Positions 6,839-19,657 of a stretch of DNA of 21,429 nucleotides are shown in pieces. The DNA is from a virus. The position numbers were made by a program, and so were the translations under genes. The stretch is taken from IMG/VR virus record IMGVR_UViG_3300012936_000216, positions 1-21,429 of that record, one strand, 5' to 3'. Within the stretch, counting starts at the first letter, position 1, and each line of letters opens with the position of its first letter. The notes under the pieces are model-generated. The model was not told the origin of the DNA. It saw only the letters and a list, made by a program, of their open reading frames with translations, and did no database searches.

Positions 6839-9800
6839 ATGTCTGCTAAGAAATTTAAATTTATATCACCTGGCGTCTTCTTAAATGAGATCGACAATAG
6901 CCAGTTGCCAAAGGCACCCGGCGGTGTCGGGCCTGTAATTATCGGTCGCGCTCGAAGAGGTCCAGCACTAAAGCCTGTAAAGGTTAGCTCTTTTCAGGAG
7001 TTTGTAGAAATCTTTGGTGAACCATTGCCAGGAAATGAAGGTAGTGACCCATGGAGAGAAGGCAATGGTCTTTTAGCACCAGGTTATGGCACATATGCGA
7101 CACAGGCTTACTTGAGTGCAGATATAAACTCGCCAGTTACTTTTATTAGGCTGCTGGGTGTGCAAGGCGATGACGCGTCGGATACTGGCCAAGCCGGCTG
7201 GTCATTAGACACCGGGAATGCATTCGGGTTATTCTTTATGCATAGCGGTTCCTCTGCAGGCGCCCACAATCTTACAGCTCACCTAGGCGCGATTGTATAT
7301 ACTGATGCTGCAGATTTTTCTGTTGGTGTAAAGGGTCAAACATTGGTAAGTGGTTCTAGCAGCATAATCACTTCTGTAGCCACCCGAGGTGCAGATTCCA
7401 CAGAGCCGGTAAAGCTTAATGGGCATGAGTTCACTGTAGTTCTCTCTAGTAGCAGTGGGGCCAAACTAGAAAGACAGGTTACTATGAGAGAAGGCGCCAA
7501 TTACATCAGAGACAGACTAAACACCAATCCTGTCGCAACAAACGACAAAGTAATGTCTCCACCCGCCCCATCTCTTGCAGCAAGCTACTGGTTAGGTGAG
7601 ACGTTTGATGAAGAATATGAAAGATTGTACACAAGTAGTTCAACTGGCCTTTGCGTGTTCGCCGCAAAACTGGCAGACAACTCAGAAGATTTCAAGAGTG
7701 TAAACCACCAATTGGCCGCGGCCGCTTCTGGCTGGGTCATTCCACAGAATCCAAACAGTCCTGATAACTTTGTTGGAGAATCTTTGGAGAAAATGTTTAG
7801 ATTCCATGCAATCCAAGAGGGCGAATCAGGCATGAACCTCAGCATTAGTATTGAAAACATAAAGATTGCAGACCCAGGGAGCGTAAACCCTTATGGGCGC
7901 TTTGATGTTGTTGTTAGGCAACGACTAGGAAGGCGAATTGTTCCTGTGGACTCTTTTGAGAATCTAAATCTAAATCCAAATTCCTCTGACTTTATTGCAA
8001 GAAGAATAGGTGATCAATATCTCAAGTGGGATACAACCCAAAAGAGAAATAGAGTATACGGCAGTTTCCCAAATCAATCAAACTTTATTAGAGTGGAGAT
8101 GAGCCTAGACGTCCTAGAGTCAGGACCAAGTAATCCATCTTCTGTACCTTTTGGATTTTTAGGCCCAATTGTACCACAAGATATAGACTCAACAGCTGCT
8201 CACTTCGGTGATGAAAACTCTAGTAAGAGAAAATTACCATTTGGCAATACGTGGGTAACTGGGTCGCTTATTGTTGATACTAATCCAAGTTCTGTTTCGC
8301 TTAAGTGGGCACAGATGCCACATGTTGTGTCTGGTTCCCGTGCCAACGGACTAGGCGCCGGTTATATTTTAGGTCATGCCGAGTACAACAAGTTAGCCGG
8401 CTCTGGAAGTGGCGGCCGCCTAAACTACTCTTCCGTCAATGTTGGGGCAAAAGACTTTTTGCGTAGATTCAGCACTGTCAATAATAGTAGCTTAGTTGGA
8501 GAACAGATTAGCGGCATAGCTTCAACTGGCAAGCACTCGTATGTATTTTCGCTAGATAGTGTTGTTGTCTCAGGGGCAACTGCACTCTCAAATGAGATGT
8601 CGTCATTCGTGCCAACGGCCGTGGACTTTATCTCGGGCTCAAGTATTTCAGCAGCCGCAAGTGCCGTGCTAACTTTCGCCTCGGCACCAGATACTAATGA
8701 AAAACTTACAATTACTGATAGTGCTGATAATTCAGTAGAGTTTACTTTTACTAGACTAAACTCTAATGTAACCAACAACGAAGCGGGAACTGAAACCGAT
8801 GTAGGTTTACAGGGTGTTACTGCTAATATGGCAAATTGCGCCGCTAGAATCAAGACAGCAATAGAGGGTACAAATTTAAGAGTATCAGTGAGCCAGACAG
8901 ATGGCGTATTGACCATAACTCAAACCGACCCAGGACCAGCAGGAAACAAAGCCATTGGTAATACCCCAGCAGTCTCAGGCCTATCCATCCCGGGGAACAA
9001 ATTCGCCGGAGGCTTCAACGGTACAGCTTTCACCGCAACTCTGCTAGATTCGTCAAATTTTGCCAGAAACTCATTCTTGTCAGCCTCAGCTTTACTAGAA
9101 GTTGTGGACGGATTTACGATGCCAATGGTCGCTGGTTTCGATGGCGTTGATGTAACGGAAGCAGATCCTTTCAATATGAGAATAGTAAATAGAGATAGCA
9201 CAACAAGGAACAGTTACGCTCATGCTAGTATTGACCGCGCCATCGAGCTAATCAAGGATCCAGAATTCTTAGAGATGAATCTTGCGACCATACCTGGTGT
9301 ATCAAACGAGTCTTTGACTACAAAACTGGTTCAGACTTGCGAAGCAAGAGGCGACTCGTTGGCTGTCATCGACTTACCGAACATTTACGTACCGCCATCT
9401 GAGCAGATTTGTTCAACTTTCGAACAAAGAGTGAACAACACAAATCCCGCGAAGAGCGCAAAGGCTCTCACAGCTAGACAGATAAACTCAAGTTATGGCG
9501 CCACGTATTACCCTTGGGTTAAGGTTAGGGACACCATCAGCGCAAGAGATGTATGGGTACCGCCATCAGTTATAGCTTTGGGTGTTATGGCATACACAGA
9601 GGAGCGTAACGAAGTTTGGTTTGCGCCCGCGGGATTCAACCGCGGCGGCCTCAATGAAGGCAACGCAGGTCTACCAGTCCTTCAGGCATCTGAGCAGCTT
9701 CTATCAGCCGATAGAGACAGGCTGTATGAAGCAAATATAAATCCGATAGCTTCTTTTGTTTCTGAAGGTCTAGTGGTCTTCGGTCAGAAGACGCTTCAAA

Positions 9801-10135
9801 TGACTCCTTCTGCCCTTGACAGGATCAACGTACGACGACTCTTGATCTTCGTAAAGAGAGAGGTTTCACGAATTGCAAATACACTACTTTTTGATCAGAA
9901 TGTTCAGGCAACCTGGAATCGTTTCACCGGTCAAGTTGTGCCATTCTTGGAGAGTGTGAAGACTAGACTCGGCCTTACAGATTTCAAGGTCATTTTAGAC
10001 AGCACAACAACAACTCCAGATTTGATTGATAGAAATATCATGTATGCAAAGATTTTCTTGAAGCCAGCAAGAGCCATTGAGTTTATTGCAGTTGATTTTG
10101 TTATTACCCGAACTGGCGCTTCTTTCGATGACTAA
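6839..10135 (+). CDS. contractile tail sheath protein (gp18-like), enlarged
   Basis: The N-terminus (KFISPGVFLNEIDNS, then GPVIIGRARRGPA and FQEFVEIFGEP) and the C-terminal ~330 residues are classic sheath: SSYGATYYPWVKV, WVPPSVIALGVMAYTE, WFAPAGFNRGG, YEANINPI, VVFGQKTL, DRINVRRLLIFVKRE, and a final DRNIMYAKIFLKPARAIEFI strand. Sheath subunits surround the tail tube and contract to drive it into the cell. T4 gp18 has 659 residues; this protein has 1098, so about 440 residues are extra, mostly in the middle, where sheath proteins carry surface domains. One insert (about residues 598-730) has a beta-rich pattern with GPAGNKAI and FAGGFNG, echoing the GTAGNVTI and GMSGG module of the fibre-like protein. 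The tail tube gene follows directly. Confidence 0.93.
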   Translation: MSAKKFKFISPGVFLNEIDNSQLPKAPGGVGPVIIGRARRGPALKPVKVSSFQEFVEIFGEPLPGNEGSDPWREGNGLLAPGYGTYATQAYLSADINSPVTFIRLLGVQGDDASDTGQAGWSLDTGNAFGLFFMHSGSSAGAHNLTAHLGAIVYTDAADFSVGVKGQTLVSGSSSIITSVATRGADSTEPVKLNGHEFTVVLSSSSGAKLERQVTMREGANYIRDRLNTNPVATNDKVMSPPAPSLAASYWLGETFDEEYERLYTSSSTGLCVFAAKLADNSEDFKSVNHQLAAAASGWVIPQNPNSPDNFVGESLEKMFRFHAIQEGESGMNLSISIENIKIADPGSVNPYGRFDVVVRQRLGRRIVPVDSFENLNLNPNSSDFIARRIGDQYLKWDTTQKRNRVYGSFPNQSNFIRVEMSLDVLESGPSNPSSVPFGFLGPIVPQDIDSTAAHFGDENSSKRKLPFGNTWVTGSLIVDTNPSSVSLKWAQMPHVVSGSRANGLGAGYILGHAEYNKLAGSGSGGRLNYSSVNVGAKDFLRRFSTVNNSSLVGEQISGIASTGKHSYVFSLDSVVVSGATALSNEMSSFVPTAVDFISGSSISAAASAVLTFASAPDTNEKLTITDSADNSVEFTFTRLNSNVTNNEAGTETDVGLQGVTANMANCAARIKTAIEGTNLRVSVSQTDGVLTITQTDPGPAGNKAIGNTPAVSGLSIPGNKFAGGFNGTAFTATLLDSSNFARNSFLSASALLEVVDGFTMPMVAGFDGVDVTEADPFNMRIVNRDSTTRNSYAHASIDRAIELIKDPEFLEMNLATIPGVSNESLTTKLVQTCEARGDSLAVIDLPNIYVPPSEQICSTFEQRVNNTNPAKSAKALTARQINSSYGATYYPWVKVRDTISARDVWVPPSVIALGVMAYTEERNEVWFAPAGFNRGGLNEGNAGLPVLQASEQLLSADRDRLYEANINPIASFVSEGLVVFGQKTLQMTPSALDRINVRRLLIFVKREVSRIANTLLFDQNVQATWNRFTGQVVPFLESVKTRLGLTDFKVILDSTTTTPDLIDRNIMYAKIFLKPARAIEFIAVDFVITRTGASFDD

Positions 10136-10186: not shown

Positions 10187-10807
10187 ATGGCAAGATTTTG
10201 GACAGAAAAGAGCGTTGAGCCAAAGAGAAAGTTCAGATGGCTTCTCTACTGGACTGGTGTTCCGCAATTTATCGTAAAGAGCGTAAAGAAGCCGTCCTTT
10301 CAGGTCGCGACAACGCCACACCAGTTCTTGAACTATGAGTTTTATTATCCAGGCCGCGTTACTTGGCAGGATATATCAATCACGCTGGTCGACCCAGTGC
10401 AGCCAGACTCAACTAAAAGTCTTTATAAGGTCTTAGAAAATTCAGGCTATAGGATCCCGCACAACTATAATCAGAACAATGCTAGAACCATATCAAAGAA
10501 AGATATGGTAGAATCATTGGGTACAGAAATAAAACTATCTCAACTAGATGCAGAGAACGGCACCCCAATTGAAACTTGGATTATAAAAAATCCCTTAATA
10601 ACTTCTGTGGATTTTGATAGTCTAGATTATAGCCAAGATGAGTTGGTAAATATTACCATAAATTTGAAATATGATTACGCGGTAATTGAAAACTTGCCAC
10701 AGGCGCCTGAACAGGCCACAGGTGGCAACATCTGGTCATTCAACAAGCAAGGCCGCGGCCGCGATAACTTTTCAGCTGACGACACTGGTGGCGGCCCGCT
10801 CATATAG
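10187..10807 (+). CDS. tail tube protein (gp19-like)
   Basis: The product is 206 residues; T4 gp19 has 163. The start RFWTEKSVEPKRKFRWLLYW, followed by VKSVKKPSF, HQFLNYEFYYPGRVTWQDISITLVDP, a LYKVLENSGY helix and a late strand VNITINLKYDYAVIE, is the tube-fold pattern of the gp19 family. The subunit stacks in rings inside the sheath to form the DNA channel. The last ~30 residues are Gly/Asp/Arg-rich and probably disordered. The gene sits between the sheath and the gp26-like gene, with AATAGGAG before its start. As in most myoviruses, the tube gene directly follows the sheath gene. Confidence 0.88.
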   Translation: MARFWTEKSVEPKRKFRWLLYWTGVPQFIVKSVKKPSFQVATTPHQFLNYEFYYPGRVTWQDISITLVDPVQPDSTKSLYKVLENSGYRIPHNYNQNNARTISKKDMVESLGTEIKLSQLDAENGTPIETWIIKNPLITSVDFDSLDYSQDELVNITINLKYDYAVIENLPQAPEQATGGNIWSFNKQGRGRDNFSADDTGGGPLI

Positions 10808-10849: not shown

Positions 10850-11719
10850 ATGTCAAGAAACCAAAAAAGAATAACGGCGAATCAGCCACAAGTCTCAAAT
10901 CCGTTACAAAGTAGCGCAGCTGCAGAAGAAAGTCCAAATCCTTTTGGACTTTCTTTTGTTGTTAATAAAGAAATTGTAAAGTTGCCAAGTAAAGGTAATT
11001 TCTATTCAGAGAACAGCCCCCTGCGTGGAGTTGGATCATTAGAAATAAAAGCCATGACTGCCAAAGAAGAAGATATAGTCCTAAATGAGAGTTATATAGA
11101 AAATGGAACTGTTTTTGATAGGCTTATCGACTCTATAGTCACTACTCCAAACATATTTGCAAAAGATATGCAAGACTGCGATAAGATGGCGGTTTTGCTT
11201 CATGCAAGAAAAACTGGGTATGGGGATGATATTGAGCTAGCAGCTTCTTGTAATGAGTGTGGCCATGAATTTGAGCCTACCGTAAGTATCGGTGACATAC
11301 TTAGTAAGTCGTCAACAAGCTCCACCGGTAGAGAAGAATGGAATATTGAGGAATCTTCAGGCTTAGTGTCTGTACAATTACCACTCACAAAGATTGATGT
11401 AAAGATAAGAATATTGACTCCAGAGGATAAAGAAAATCTGCGAAACACTATAGAGAAGAAGAAGAAACTCAACCTAGAATATAGCGAAACAATAGAGTTT
11501 CTCAGAAAAATCCTTGTGTCAGCTAATGGTGTTGTTGACCCACTAATGTTAAACCAGTTATGTGAAGTTGTTCCAGCCTCAGATGCCAGGATTATGACGA
11601 AAGCACACAAAGACTGTTCTCCTTCGGTGAATATGGTGGCAGATATCACATGCCCATCTTGTAATGCAGTATCTGCAAGGGAGGTGCCCTTTTCATTGGG
11701 CTGGTTTTGGTCTAAGTGA
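10850..11719 (+). CDS. baseplate hub protein, gp26-like, with zinc ribbon
   Basis: The product is 289 residues; T4 gp26 has 208. After a disordered start (1-30) comes the pattern I associate with the T4 baseplate hub family: LPSKGNFYSENSPL, LEIKAMTAKEEDIVLN, FDRLIDSIV, then a Cys pair C134/C137 (CNECGHEF). A second pair C268/C271 (CPSC) near the end would complete a zinc ribbon. The segment KIRILTPEDKENLRNTIEKKKK is also typical. In T4, gp26 belongs to the hub cluster, acting in hub assembly with gp51, 27, 28 and 29. Here the next genes are a short chaperone-like frame and a tape measure, which matches that order. The 3' end overlaps the next frame by 56 bases and contains a possible +1 frameshift site. 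Confidence 0.75.
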   Translation: MSRNQKRITANQPQVSNPLQSSAAAEESPNPFGLSFVVNKEIVKLPSKGNFYSENSPLRGVGSLEIKAMTAKEEDIVLNESYIENGTVFDRLIDSIVTTPNIFAKDMQDCDKMAVLLHARKTGYGDDIELAASCNECGHEFEPTVSIGDILSKSSTSSTGREEWNIEESSGLVSVQLPLTKIDVKIRILTPEDKENLRNTIEKKKKLNLEYSETIEFLRKILVSANGVVDPLMLNQLCEVVPASDARIMTKAHKDCSPSVNMVADITCPSCNAVSAREVPFSLGWFWSK

Positions 11720-11876
11720 AGAGTACCTTGAGAAAGTTGTTTACGAACAAATTTTTTCACTTGTAAAGCATGGAAATTTTTCTTTTTCCGAAGCATATTC
11801 CCTTCCTATCGGTCTAAGAAACTGGTTTTTTGACCGTCTTATAAAATACTATAACTCAACAGACGAAAACAATTAG
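11664..11876 (+). CDS. short hub-assembly chaperone-like frame, possibly expressed by +1 frameshift
   Basis: The protein-like part starts at about 11712: LSEEYLEKVVYEQIFSLV, then HGNFSFSEAYSLPIGLRNWF and a basic helix to the end. This Y-[ED]-EIF...F-[ST]-x-x-x-[VAY]-x-x-[ML]-P-I-x-x-R pattern resembles small proteins next to gp26-like hub genes in T4-like phages, and tail assembly chaperones in general; it holds the place of T4 gene 51. The ATG at 11664 has no visible ribosome binding site, and the first ~16 residues it adds (MQYLQGRCPFHW) look like out-of-frame hub sequence. Either translation is coupled to the hub gene, or the frame is reached by a +1 shift at 11687-11690, giving a 341-residue fusion. 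The gene ends 34 bases before the tape-measure start. Confidence 0.65.
   Translation: MQYLQGRCPFHWAGFGLSEEYLEKVVYEQIFSLVKHGNFSFSEAYSLPIGLRNWFFDRLIKYYNSTDENN
11677..11690 (+). promoter_or_regulatory. candidate SD-stimulated +1 frameshift site
   Basis: AAGGGAGG (11677-11684) lies two bases before an in-frame CCC codon (11687-11689) followed by T. A proline tRNA on CCC could re-pair with CCT one base on and continue in the frame of the short chaperone-like gene. A strong anti-SD match 2-3 bases before the slippery codon is the arrangement that drives the +1 shift in bacterial prfB (RF2). No good start codon lies at a useful distance after this SD in the downstream frame, so it does not look like an ordinary ribosome binding site. 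Unlike prfB, the next zero-frame codon is TTT, not a stop. Confidence 0.4.
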
Positions 11877-11910: not shown

Positions 11911-13545
11911 ATGGCAGCATATAGAACTGTATCCGAAGTCCTCGAGGCGGTCAAACAAGGCATGCTCTCGACCAATGAAGCGAAAAGAGAAATAGCAAAG
12001 CTCGGCACCGGCTCTAGAGGTGGCGGCAGCAGTGTGGTTGATAAAGCAAGATCGTTGGCCTCGGGCATTACTGGTGATGATCTTCAACAAGATATCAATG
12101 AGGCCCTTGGTGCAACTGGTAAATTAGTAGGCGGGTTTGAGAGCCTTTTTCAGCAAATTACACTAACCAGAGAAGAGATGAACCAGTTCTTTCAGGCCGG
12201 CTACTCGAATCAGATGGATAGATTTGGCAAGTCTATAGACTCTGCATACAAGGCCAGTTTTGATCTTTTTGGATCATTTGAGAAAGGTGCAACAGTTGTT
12301 TCGGCTTTTAGAGATGAATTCAAAGCAATGCCTTTTGTCTCAAAGCAGTTCACACAATCTTTGATGGAAAACTCTGTTGTTCTGTCCGGTGCAGGCTTTG
12401 AGATGAGAACCTTTGCGCAAGTGATAGAGGATGGCGTCATGGCATTTAACATGTCTGCCGACGGTCTAGATTCACTTACTGCACAACTTATTACAACGAG
12501 CAAAGAGATGGCCATCGCCCCAGATGTTTTGACAGATAATTTTAGAATAGCCCAAAAAGATTTCGCATACACCTCAGATAAGTTTATGGATAATTTTGTC
12601 AAACTACAAAAAATGGCAAGAACAACTGGTGTAGACTTTCAATCACTGGCTACTGCATTCGGATCTTCAATGGACACTTTTGAGGGATCTGCTACAAAAG
12701 CAGGGCAGCTCAACCAAATTCTAGGTAAGTCAGTTTTTAATAGTATCGATCTCCTAAACAAAACAGAAGCTGAGAGAGCGGAAACGATAAGAAATGAAAT
12801 AACAAAAAGCGGCCGCAATGTTGAAGAGATGGGCAAGTTTGAGCTTTTAGCCCTAAAAGACACACTAGGTCTTGGAAGCGTTGCGGAAACCAGAAAGTTC
12901 CTTCGTGGTGATCTCAAAATGGACGAACGTGGCGACATAAAAAAAATGAAAGACATGTCACCAGACAAGATTGTCCAAATGCAAGGAAAAGATCTCGGCA
13001 ACGCAATTAAGAACCTAAGTGATGGAATAAAAAATCAACAAGCCCCAATGACGAGAGCGTTTATAGAGCTAAATAAGTCAATCCGTGGAAAGGCTCAGGA
13101 GATTGGCATGCTTGGCGGTCTTATAGGTAAACCCATTGGGGACGAAGGCCTAGTACAATTTTTCTCGAGGTCCCTCGCCGAAGCGATGGGCGCAACTGGC
13201 AAAGCGGACCCAATGTCAACGGCGGGTATAGACATTTCAAATTTAGAAAATCAAGCAGTTTTTCTAAGGAAGATATTGGGCCAAGTTGATAAAGCAGAGG
13301 GCATAGGAGATCTGGTTAAAATTCAATTGACAAATGTTGAACTGGCGAAGGCTTTAGCCCAAAATATACCTGGATTGAACAAGGAGATGGCTGGTAATAT
13401 GGGTGTTGTTTTTGGTGACGCTGCAATTAATGAGATCTTGCGGCTGTTGAGGATAAAAGCCCCCTCTACAGCAGTGAGTAACGCCGCATCCACAGGTGCC
13501 AATATTGTACCAAACACCACATCTGGTGGTACCACCGGTGGATGA
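11911..13545 (+). CDS. tail tape-measure protein (gp29-like)
   Basis: The product has 544 residues, close to T4 gp29 (590). It is mostly alpha-helical with alternating hydrophobic residues (FQQITLTREEMNQFFQAGY, AQLITTSKEMAIAPDVLTDN) and Gly/Ser breaks, as in tape-measure proteins. The segment MARTTGVDFQSLATAFGSSMDTF, with TKAGQLNQILGKS after it, is the kind of TG-rich helical repeat seen in the family. The C-terminus is a Thr/Gly tail (TTSGGTTGG). Its role would be to set tail length, filling the tube lumen, with the hub at its end. It lies after the gp26-like gene and before the tube-cap gene, the same order as 26-51-29-48 in T4. The start has TAAGGAG about 7 bases upstream. Confidence 0.72.
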   Translation: MAAYRTVSEVLEAVKQGMLSTNEAKREIAKLGTGSRGGGSSVVDKARSLASGITGDDLQQDINEALGATGKLVGGFESLFQQITLTREEMNQFFQAGYSNQMDRFGKSIDSAYKASFDLFGSFEKGATVVSAFRDEFKAMPFVSKQFTQSLMENSVVLSGAGFEMRTFAQVIEDGVMAFNMSADGLDSLTAQLITTSKEMAIAPDVLTDNFRIAQKDFAYTSDKFMDNFVKLQKMARTTGVDFQSLATAFGSSMDTFEGSATKAGQLNQILGKSVFNSIDLLNKTEAERAETIRNEITKSGRNVEEMGKFELLALKDTLGLGSVAETRKFLRGDLKMDERGDIKKMKDMSPDKIVQMQGKDLGNAIKNLSDGIKNQQAPMTRAFIELNKSIRGKAQEIGMLGGLIGKPIGDEGLVQFFSRSLAEAMGATGKADPMSTAGIDISNLENQAVFLRKILGQVDKAEGIGDLVKIQLTNVELAKALAQNIPGLNKEMAGNMGVVFGDAAINEILRLLRIKAPSTAVSNAASTGANIVPNTTSGGTTGG

Positions 13546-17398: not shown

Positions 17399-18552
17399 CT
17401 AGTAATATAAGATTCTCCGGAGGGCAAACAGACACTTTGCATGAAGAGTTTACTGAAAGAGAGAAATATAGAAATTATGCGAATTTTCCTGGCTCTATAG
17501 ACGTCATCTATGATAAGATATCTTATGGTTTGATAAATTCAAACTATGAGCCGATCTATATAGTACCAAATTCTCTGATCTTTGAAAATTTTGCACCTTA
17601 TGCGCCAAATGTTGAAGCCTTGAAATTTGTGACTGATACTTTTTCTGATTTTCGAAATGCTTATCTGGACAAAGTTTCAAACAGTAGCCGCTCTACACCT
17701 AAGTTTCTCGGAGAAATAATTCCTGTCTTAGGCTACTCTTCTCTGGAAGAGGTCTATTCTCGATACATGGTTTTTACAAATACAAAATATTCTACCATAC
17801 TAGAATCTAACAAGAGCGTAAATGACTTTAATTGTTTCTTGACCGCTATAAAGTCTCTACTTAGAAAAAATGCCCATATTTTTCCCGTAACTAGAAGCGG
17901 ATTTATTTTGTCAAACAAGAATATCCCGAGAACCTCTGGAATAACAATTGAATTAGCAAAACTAGACTACAATCTAGATTTTGAAAAAGGCCAGATCATA
18001 CAAAGTGAGGATTTCTATTGTTATGCGCAGTTTGCAAAAAATTTTGGATTTTATATAGACAAATATAGCCCATGGCGACTATATGCGAATTTGGAACACG
18101 AAACAATACAACAGAGAATAATAAGGGGAAGAGAAAATTTTGATTCTGCAGAAGCAGTAATAAACCAGACCTTTCGCTTGAGGTCGCATCGAGACGATCT
18201 ATATGATTTGCAAGATTTCATACTAAAAACATACAACCAAATAGTTAGTAACACGCCGTTTTACGTGGAGTCCAAATACAACCCTCAGAGTAACACAACA
18301 AGTAGAGAGATAATCATTCGACCTGATGATAAGCGGTTTTCGACTGAGCAGTGGCTCGAGCTTTTGTTGGAAGTAAGAATGTTAGAACTGCAGGTGTACA
18401 ATTTAAATGAATTTACTTTTCATCGCGATTCTGTTATAATGACAAATAAACTTTACGGCCCGCAGGCGGCAATTGACAGTCTTGGGTCGATTTGTTCAAA
18501 TTATATAAGAGCTAAGTATGAAAGAAGAAAGCATGGTAATTCAACCCCTTGA
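17395..18552 (+). CDS. unrecognised protein at the end of the baseplate block
   Basis: The family is not recognised. The 385-residue product is rich in Tyr, Asn, Ser and Phe, has no signal peptide or membrane helix, and has only two cysteines besides the C-terminal region. Notable segments are LGEIIPVLGYSSLEEVYSRY, KSVNDFNCFLTAIKSLL, ISLSNKN-like RSGFILSNKNIPRTSGITIE, and FYIDKYSPWRLYANLE. The last is a conserved-looking Pro-Trp-Arg-Leu block. It starts inside the stop of the hub-like gene (ATGA) and overlaps the polymerase gene by 35 bases, so it belongs to the same transcript. A virion structural or baseplate assembly protein is the simplest guess from context; nothing in the sequence proves it. 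Confidence 0.7.
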   Translation: MTSNIRFSGGQTDTLHEEFTEREKYRNYANFPGSIDVIYDKISYGLINSNYEPIYIVPNSLIFENFAPYAPNVEALKFVTDTFSDFRNAYLDKVSNSSRSTPKFLGEIIPVLGYSSLEEVYSRYMVFTNTKYSTILESNKSVNDFNCFLTAIKSLLRKNAHIFPVTRSGFILSNKNIPRTSGITIELAKLDYNLDFEKGQIIQSEDFYCYAQFAKNFGFYIDKYSPWRLYANLEHETIQQRIIRGRENFDSAEAVINQTFRLRSHRDDLYDLQDFILKTYNQIVSNTPFYVESKYNPQSNTTSREIIIRPDDKRFSTEQWLELLLEVRMLELQVYNLNEFTFHRDSVIMTNKLYGPQAAIDSLGSICSNYIRAKYERRKHGNSTP

Positions 18553-19657
18553 AATAGAAAACAATTGTGTAGGAATTTTTGCAAAAGACACATTTTATTT
18601 TGAAGACTTTAGTGAGCCTCTGCTGTCATCTAAATACTGCTGGTCTTATTCTCCTATAATTAAGAATGACCTAGATTATGAATTTGTTAGCGTTTTCTTG
18701 AAAAAAGAAAACTTGAAAAACTATTCTTCAGATCCCGCTAAGTATGAAGCAACTGAAAGCTTGCTTAAGGCTCAAAAAAAAGCTTCAAGCATTGCAAAGA
18801 TAGATTGTTCGGAATTATGCTTCTTTGATGTAATCCCAGATCATCTACTAAACAAATGGTTTATACTGAGAGATGAAGCAATTTCGAACGTTTTAGAAAA
18901 AAATAAAAAACCAGATGACTATGATATTTTGCATAAAATCCACGTCCTGACCTCTGAAATTTCAAAAAAACCGATAAATTTTTTGAATCAAGATAAAAGA
19001 ATAATTTACGACATCTACTCTTCGGCCACTGGGAGGTTGACCACCAAAAAAAGTTCAGTTCCTATATTAAATATAAGCAAGCCTGAGCGACATGCCCTTA
19101 AGCCAAAAAATGACCTCTATTTAGAGCTGGATATAAATGGCGCAGAGATTAGGACTCTGCTAGCTTTTTCTGGAATCGAGCAACCCAGAGAAGATATACA
19201 TAGCTGGAATATGAAATCGTTACCATCCTGGGTCACAAGAGCAGAAGCAAAAGAAAAGTTTTTTGCATGGCTTTACAACCCGACTGCAGAGAATAAGGAT
19301 TATGAAAAATATTATAATAAAAAAGCGTATCTGAGATACTATGATGGCGGAATCGTAAAAACCCCATTCGGTAGACGATTGCCTGTTGATGAACGTAGGG
19401 CTCTAAATTACTTGCTTCAATCAACAACTAGTGATATAGTGTTAGCTAGCTCTTATAATATAATGAAGCTTTTAAAAAATAGAAAAAGCCACATTGCATT
19501 TACGATGCACGATTCTGTCATTCTCGACTTTGCAAAAGAAGACCATCATTTGGTGAGAAAAATTAAAGATATTTTTGAAAGCAATATATTTGGAAAATTT
19601 TTATCTACAGTAAGTATTGGAAAAGACTTTGGAAATTTAAGGAAAATTGAAATTTGA
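18518..19657 (+). CDS. compact family A DNA polymerase without exonuclease domain
   Basis: The product has 379 residues. The palm and fingers motifs of family A polymerases are all present: TGR at 171-173, motif A with D205 and E210 (ELDINGAEIR), the O-helix R241-x3-K245-x3-F249-x3-Y253 with the exact spacing of E. coli Pol I (R754/K758/F762/Y766), GGIVKTPFGRRLP at 277-289, Q301 (LQSTTSDIV), and motif C H331-D332 (TMHDSVILDF). Both catalytic aspartates are kept, so activity is expected. Pol I has 928 residues and its Klenow part about 600; here the N-terminal ~110 residues show no 3'-5' exonuclease motif and the thumb looks short. The usual Gly after the O-helix Tyr is Asn. T4-like phages normally use a family B polymerase (gp43). 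It overlaps the upstream gene by 35 bases and the downstream one by 4. The alternative start ATG at 18533 would remove five residues. Confidence 0.85.
   Translation: MKEESMVIQPLEIENNCVGIFAKDTFYFEDFSEPLLSSKYCWSYSPIIKNDLDYEFVSVFLKKENLKNYSSDPAKYEATESLLKAQKKASSIAKIDCSELCFFDVIPDHLLNKWFILRDEAISNVLEKNKKPDDYDILHKIHVLTSEISKKPINFLNQDKRIIYDIYSSATGRLTTKKSSVPILNISKPERHALKPKNDLYLELDINGAEIRTLLAFSGIEQPREDIHSWNMKSLPSWVTRAEAKEKFFAWLYNPTAENKDYEKYYNKKAYLRYYDGGIVKTPFGRRLPVDERRALNYLLQSTTSDIVLASSYNIMKLLKNRKSHIAFTMHDSVILDFAKEDHHLVRKIKDIFESNIFGKFLSTVSIGKDFGNLRKIEI

Follow-up and report, generated by a model that had tools for sequence, protein, structure and literature searches.

The T4 proteins gp26 and gp51 are said, after Vladimirov et al. 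2022 (pmid 34826709), to be tail-assembly chaperones of T4-like phages. In phage lambda, gpG and gpGT come from two overlapping ORFs beside the tape-measure gene, and a shift near the end of the first ORF gives a minor long form with a C-terminal T domain (PMC5009743), a layout shared by the locus described here. A 2016 review regards the G-T frameshift as conserved except in T4 and that of HSTV-2 as very likely +1 (PMC5009743). A conserved -1 tail-chaperone shift at GTTTTT has been reported for phage Adele, with poly-T -1 sites ascribed to T4-like chaperone genes (PMC12846349). In the RF2 context CUU_U is the most shift-prone site and UUU is one of those that come next (PMC5009743, PMC10885494); UUU_U was weaker than CUU_U in RF2 tests in E. 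coli (PMC5009743). Working in vitro with E. coli 70S extracts, Huang, Cho and Chang found that +1 shifting at CUU_UGA, and likewise at a hungry UGU codon, is stimulated by a hairpin adjoining the E site; the same hairpin attenuates -1 shifting and mimics an internal SD duplex (PMC6321510).

Here we analyse a 21.4-kb IMG/VR virus record (the window, 21,429 nt; all features are on the plus strand), in which a +1 shift joining a hub protein to a chaperone-like tail had been predicted. With a probability of about 0.88, we read the locus as encoding the tail-assembly chaperones of a virus with a contractile tail and a distant relationship to T4, where a +1 shift at UUU_U would lead to a GT-like form.

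Results

ORF1 (10850-11719) encodes 289 aa with two CxxC pairs and ends at the TGA stop 11717-11719, two codons past the UGG codon of the proposed slip site. It belongs to Pfam PF12322 (T4 gp26/gp51; T4 base plate protein) with a profile score above the curated cutoff (E 1.7e-7, 31.6 bits vs 24.5), the same family that both T4 gp26 and gp51 match, and it also matches phrog_150 (E 2.5e-9). Structures of ORF1 and of the downstream T domain were predicted separately, not as a fusion. The AlphaFold model of ORF1 (pLDDT 88.9) retrieved the SP-15 hub protein (E 3e-15) and gp26 of Aeromonas phage 25 (E 1e-4) with Foldseek, while its best two matches in the PDB, YqbN (3klu, E 0.76) and the HK97 tail assembly chaperone (2ob9, E 1.3), were not significant. 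We take YqbN to be a phage tail-chaperone protein. Sequence searches of the PDB with ORF1 and the T domain gave nothing useful.

The 5' neighbour of ORF1 is a gp19-like tail tube gene (10187-10807; phrog_4542 tail tube, E 3.4e-24), preceded by a gene for a tail sheath protein of 1098 aa (6839-10135; PF17482, E 2.4e-9). Sheath domains are recognised solely in the final quarter of the latter, the rest being a large N-terminal or inserted region. On the 3' side lies a 544-aa ORF (11911-13545) without a significant match in family profile searches, a putative tape-measure protein by position only. The Flavobacterium phage vB_FspM_immuto, the B. subtilis phage SP-15 and the Listeria innocua phage LIS04 have annotated tape-measure genes after a homologous ORF1/T pair; their ORF1 comes after the sheath and tube genes and is separated from the tape-measure gene by a small gap or a short ORF, and the window has the same order with the 544-aa ORF in the last place. 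ORF1 thus lies where a G/GT pair is expected, between a tube gene recognised by profile and a tape-measure gene recognised by position. Because of this gene order and the homology to T4 gp51 described below, we interpret the locus as a G/GT tail-assembly-chaperone pair; that the short form and a frameshifted long form share an N-terminus is indicated by sequence conservation only. ORF1, called a hub protein in the original prediction, is better named a short, gpG-like tail-assembly chaperone, as judged by family and gene order. Elsewhere in the window, the ORF at 18518-19657 carries only a C-terminal family A DNA polymerase signature (phrog_17, E 6e-15; PF00476 at positions 277-352, just under the cutoff) and has no match in its N-terminal half, so the polymerase may be shortened or split.

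The +1 frame is open for 61 codons from CCC_T to the TAG stop at 11874-11876. Its T-domain ORF (11709-11876) runs from GGT 11709 to this stop and encodes 55 aa with the pattern GLSxxYxE..VYEE.F.L..G..SF.EAYSLP..LR.WF..RL. AlphaFold models the T domain as three helices (pLDDT 88.5), for which Foldseek found no match in the PDB; a relationship to DNA polymerase III theta was considered and dropped, the PDB sequence matches being weak and judged to be due to chance. A shift at CCC_T gives a 341-aa fusion and a shift at UUU_U (11705-11708) likewise gives 341 aa (286 + 55), so the predicted product sizes of 289 and 341 aa hold for either site.

Scanning viral contigs with ORF1 yielded 80 relatives. 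In each retrieved relative whose sequence reaches far enough downstream, the +1 frame carries the same domain and the -1 frame is full of stops. A second scan, started from the T domain alone, gave 80 loci, all of them located after an open ORF1 frame with the same frame change. Searching genome contigs for an exact DNA motif gave no hits, and IMG/VR protein scans with XacN1, Atu_ph07 and GXN1 queries added few or no new loci. Of the nucleotide differences between pairs of T domains, 25, 10 and 64% lie at codon positions 1, 2 and 3 of the +1 frame; the 64% at third positions indicates that the T domain is translated in that frame. By these comparisons its conservation is far beyond chance. In all 134 distinct sites the ORF1 stop ends 8-14 nt beyond the start of the first +1 codon. 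The predicted +1 fusion of a gp26-like zinc-ribbon protein to a chaperone-like tail is therefore strongly supported by a T domain conserved in the +1 frame and by the retention of YUU_U.

The proposed slip site UUU_UGG (11705-11710) is the window's version of YUU_UGG, where the first codon is UUU or CUU, found at the frame change in 81/81 ORF1-based and 80/80 T-based loci. These two sets, 161 loci in total, partly overlap and contain 134 distinct sites, and each of the 134 has UUU, or in some cases CUU, as its final codon ahead of the frame change, with U as the next base. Seven more loci from genome collections and eight genomes of named or uncultured phages have UUU or CUU followed by U or C. 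A P-site codon able to re-pair one base forward is thus conserved in 161/161 loci, and the invariance of its third U fits slipping, since the +1 product does not need this U if the shift takes place there. UUU is the commonest Phe codon (76%), so the Phe cases by themselves are modest evidence; the Leu cases, all of which use the RF2 slip codon CUU although CUU makes up 26% of Leu codons, argue more strongly. A point against a +1 shift at UUU_UGG is that its A-site codon, UGG, is a sense codon. The predicted junction peptide (from 11681-11722) is ...VPFSLGWFGLSEEY for a shift at UUU and ...VPFHWAGFGLSEEY for one at CCC, the junction being ...GWFGLSEEY or ...FHWAGFGLSEEY, respectively. In five contigs from Flavobacteriales and other MAGs (L189-L193) the same +1 arrangement occurs with UUU_UGG or UUU_UUC. 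Streptococcus phage GXN1 (L090:3700-3729) has UUU_CGU as its proposed site, whose P- and A-site codons are presumably those of the PA-X +1 site of influenza.

Two elements lie upstream. The SD-like sequence AAGGGAGG (11677-11684) is 20 nt 5' of the slip codon, and the RNA hairpin GCCC-UUUUCAUU-GGGC (11686-11701) ends 3 nt 5' of it. GGAGG occurs in 65 of the 91 representatives vs 17.2 expected from synonymous codon resampling, and the Glu codon at -27 is GAG in 58/59 cases. Codons just 5' of the site are also skewed (Pro CCG 63% vs 15% in the background; Asp GAC 44/44), which we attribute to the constraint from GGAGG and the hairpin. For the 27 nt before the slip codon, folding of the 91 representatives at 37 C, compared with synonymous redraws, gave a mean z of -2.45 and a median of -2.82, with 70% below -1.5; ten control windows along the same genes gave medians between -0.3 and 0.25. 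These scores come from 27-nt windows of sequences that are related to one another. The window's own hairpin (MFE -7.8 kcal/mol, 97% of the ensemble for 11678-11704) scores z -2.2 vs synonymous resampling and -0.41 vs dinucleotide shuffles, which it does not beat. The stem registers differ by lineage (CCGC/GCGG, TGCCG/CGGCA and TCGGCGTT/AACGCCGA, compared with GCCC/GGGC in the window). About a quarter of the representatives have no SD and some have no strong stem, while 21 of the 25 SD-less representatives still carry a strong stem. As judged by synonymous resampling, the hairpin and GGAGG are thus maintained beyond the protein code, and the SD-like stimulator that had been proposed is probably real. 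A search for a strong downstream stimulatory structure returned only a mild signal (median z -0.8). Bacteroidetes generally have no SD sequences (PMC3155529), and any SD-like stimulator may therefore not act in contigs L189-L193.

The T domain could be reached in other ways. The original prediction placed the +1 shift at CCC_T (11687-11690), with AAGGGAGG 2 nt upstream acting in the manner of RF2. The sequence layout is as it described, with AAGGGAGG at 11677-11684 followed by TG, CCC at 11687-11689 and T at 11690; CCC_U is shift-prone, its spacing from the SD resembles that of prfB, the +1 frame of the window is open from it, and CCC_T is kept in the four nearest relatives. It is nevertheless unconserved in the wider family, where the proline codon is CCG in 51/81, CCC in 14/81, CCA in 9 and CCT in 7 loci, while UUU/CUU_U is kept in every case. 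Moreover, in 27 of the 134 distinct sites the +1 frame is closed by a stop that falls after the proline codon and before the UUU codon; there the shift must come later, in the last few codons before GGN. The CCC of the window lies in the 5' arm of the hairpin and is explained by the GCCC/GGGC stem. We therefore rejected CCC_T as the slip site and consider a shift there unlikely; the prediction was probably wrong by 18 nt, and its prfB-style geometry changes accordingly, with the SD 20 nt rather than 2-3 nt from the conserved slip codon and UGG rather than a stop codon in the A site. The conservation anticipated in relatives thus applies to GGAGG, which is enriched, and not to CCC_T.

Alternatively, a start in the +1 frame might be used, through re-initiation or coupled translation, to make the T domain as a separate small protein. 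The window does have such a start, ATG 11664, several genomes have a short separate ORF annotated here, and in the uncultured phage LR756511 (L085:3760-3900) a T-like domain follows a TAATG stop-start overlap that could start it, possibly a switch from frameshifting to separate initiation in that phage. However, ATG 11664 is the sole possible +1-frame start in the window, has no ribosome binding site, as had been stated, and is not conserved; the family has no conserved start or start-proximal SD, 39 of the 134 distinct sites lack any +1-frame ATG, GTG or TTG as far as T codon 6, and one relative (L004) has no +1-frame start whatsoever. Separate initiation would also leave the constraint on the slip codon, the U_UUU_UUY of the -1 relatives described below and the in-frame T4 gp51 unexplained. 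On the 39 sites we rejected this explanation, which we regard as very improbable. A separate start with its own ribosome binding site and no conserved SD or slippery codon, the pattern named in advance as speaking against a frameshift, is not what the clade displays, even if CCC_T itself is unconserved. Finally, the T run, which in most relatives comprises seven consecutive T's (TTTTTTTGG), could lead into the same frame if ribosomes slipped -2 on it or if the polymerase slipped during transcription. The run is broken with YUU_U kept in the window (TGGTTTTGG), in relative L005 (ATGTTTTGG) and in the variants TTCTTTTGG and TTTCTTTGG, and these interrupted runs favour a +1 P-site slip; slippage of either kind was rejected and seems the most far-fetched of the three.

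In 15 relatives the T domain is instead in the -1 frame, and each has an in-frame T_TTT_TT(T/C): XacN1, RAS14, PA5oct, Atu_ph07, Phosso, Vibrio 2.275.O, Munch, CBB, 121Q, RaK2, SCTP-2, XaC1, S-RS29, C48C1 and contig L178. These -1 relatives give no upstream-hairpin signal (mean z -0.22 vs -0.24 in controls); the mean z in the other +1 lineages is -1.17. Mapped on the tree of ORF1, the three arrangements require 5 changes, compared with 16 in shuffles, and the tree may be compatible with as few as one switch of direction. In S-RS29 (L186:3571-3760) and C48C1 (L187:3062-3240) the T domain is overlapped by a gene with the annotation 'baseplate hub assembly catalyst' and can be reached from ORF1 by a -1 shift at T_TTT_TT(C/T).

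The T domain of cyanophage C48C1 matches the C-terminus of T4 gp51 (E 1e-6) as well as the profile of the +1 T domains (E 2e-5), and the T domains of jumbo phages match the same profile (E 1e-5), all three being single-comparison E-values. The single T4 gp51 sequence had no match to the +1 profile, so the link runs via the cyanophage domain. Because the cyanophage domain matches both, gp51 resembles G and T fused in frame, and gp26 a copy of G alone, a reading in agreement with the title of Vladimirov et al. 2022 and with its citation in PMC10885494.

Discussion

A programmed +1 frameshift in a T4-type tail-assembly chaperone is well supported by our comparison, in which the conserved overlap, the coding T domain, the constraint on the slip site and on the hairpin and SD, and the homology to gp51 are all properties of the sequences. 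From them we infer the occurrence of the shift and its efficiency, as well as the action of the hairpin and a role in tail assembly. Most ribosomes would stop at TGA 11717 and make the short G-like chaperone. A minority would pause when UUU occupies the P site and UGG the A site; there the Phe-tRNA could slip one base forward on UUU_U, changing the A-site codon from UGG to GGU; translation would then enter the T domain and produce the 341-residue GT-like chaperone. The hairpin at 11686-11701, refolding directly behind the ribosome, and the upstream GGAGG would push the ribosome forward and discourage -1 slipping. We hypothesize that, once the hairpin is folded, GGAGG would effectively lie about 4 nt from the slip codon. 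Set beside the published E-site hairpin experiments (PMC6321510), the window combines a hairpin whose 3' end lies 3 nt from the slip codon with a YUU_U codon, and its A-site codon, UGG, is the only one for its amino acid. The probable role of the short and long chaperones is to coat the tape-measure protein and to bring in tube subunits.

We slightly favour the view that both shift directions are used for one T domain, that the flanking RNA sets the direction, and that T4 escaped the frameshift by gene duplication. On this view, a U-rich site would be made to slip +1 by a hairpin that refolds behind the ribosome, whether or not an SD duplex is also present, and lineages without the hairpin would slip -1 at U_UUU_UUY. 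If this is true, the family contains a widespread natural example of an upstream-hairpin +1 stimulator, so far mainly known from designed constructs. T4 has long been listed as an exception to the conserved tail-chaperone frameshift (PMC5009743), and this large clade of marine relatives would place a frameshift in the T4-type family, with the opposite sign to lambda. The clade's many natural sequences could also be used to test how the direction of the shift is set by RNA behind the ribosome. In many genome annotations the T domain appears as a hypothetical gene, truncated or separate, or under the name 'baseplate hub assembly catalyst', and the fusion is missed.

Lambda gpG/gpGT, which the locus resembles in layout, shifts -1, whereas the window would shift +1 at YUU_UGG with an upstream hairpin and SD, and its protein belongs to the T4 gp26/gp51 family. 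T4 gp26 and gp51 share PF12322 with ORF1, and the C-terminus of gp51 is akin to the T domain via the cyanophage relatives, but in T4 the short and the long form have a gene each and no frameshift is involved, where the window has one locus for both. The jumbo phages RaK2, 121Q, CBB, Munch, PA5oct and Atu_ph07 and the cyanophage S-RS29 have, like the window, the ORF1 family with a related overlapping T domain; unlike the window, they carry it in the -1 frame at U_UUU_UUY and have no upstream hairpin constraint. E. coli prfB (RF2) is similar in its P-site YUU_U slip, with the exact CUU_U in some relatives, and in its upstream SD-like element; it differs in that the A-site codon of the window is UGG rather than UGA, the SD is 20 nt away with a hairpin in between, and the locus has no autoregulatory logic. 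Listeria phage PSA and, very likely, the archaeal myovirus HSTV-2 also have +1 shifts in structural or tail-chaperone genes of tailed phages (PMC5009743), though PSA shifts on a proline codon, in its capsid and tail-shaft genes (PMC5009743). The T4 chaperones and +1 chaperone shifting in another phage were already known, while this clade, its slip site and its hairpin appear to be new.
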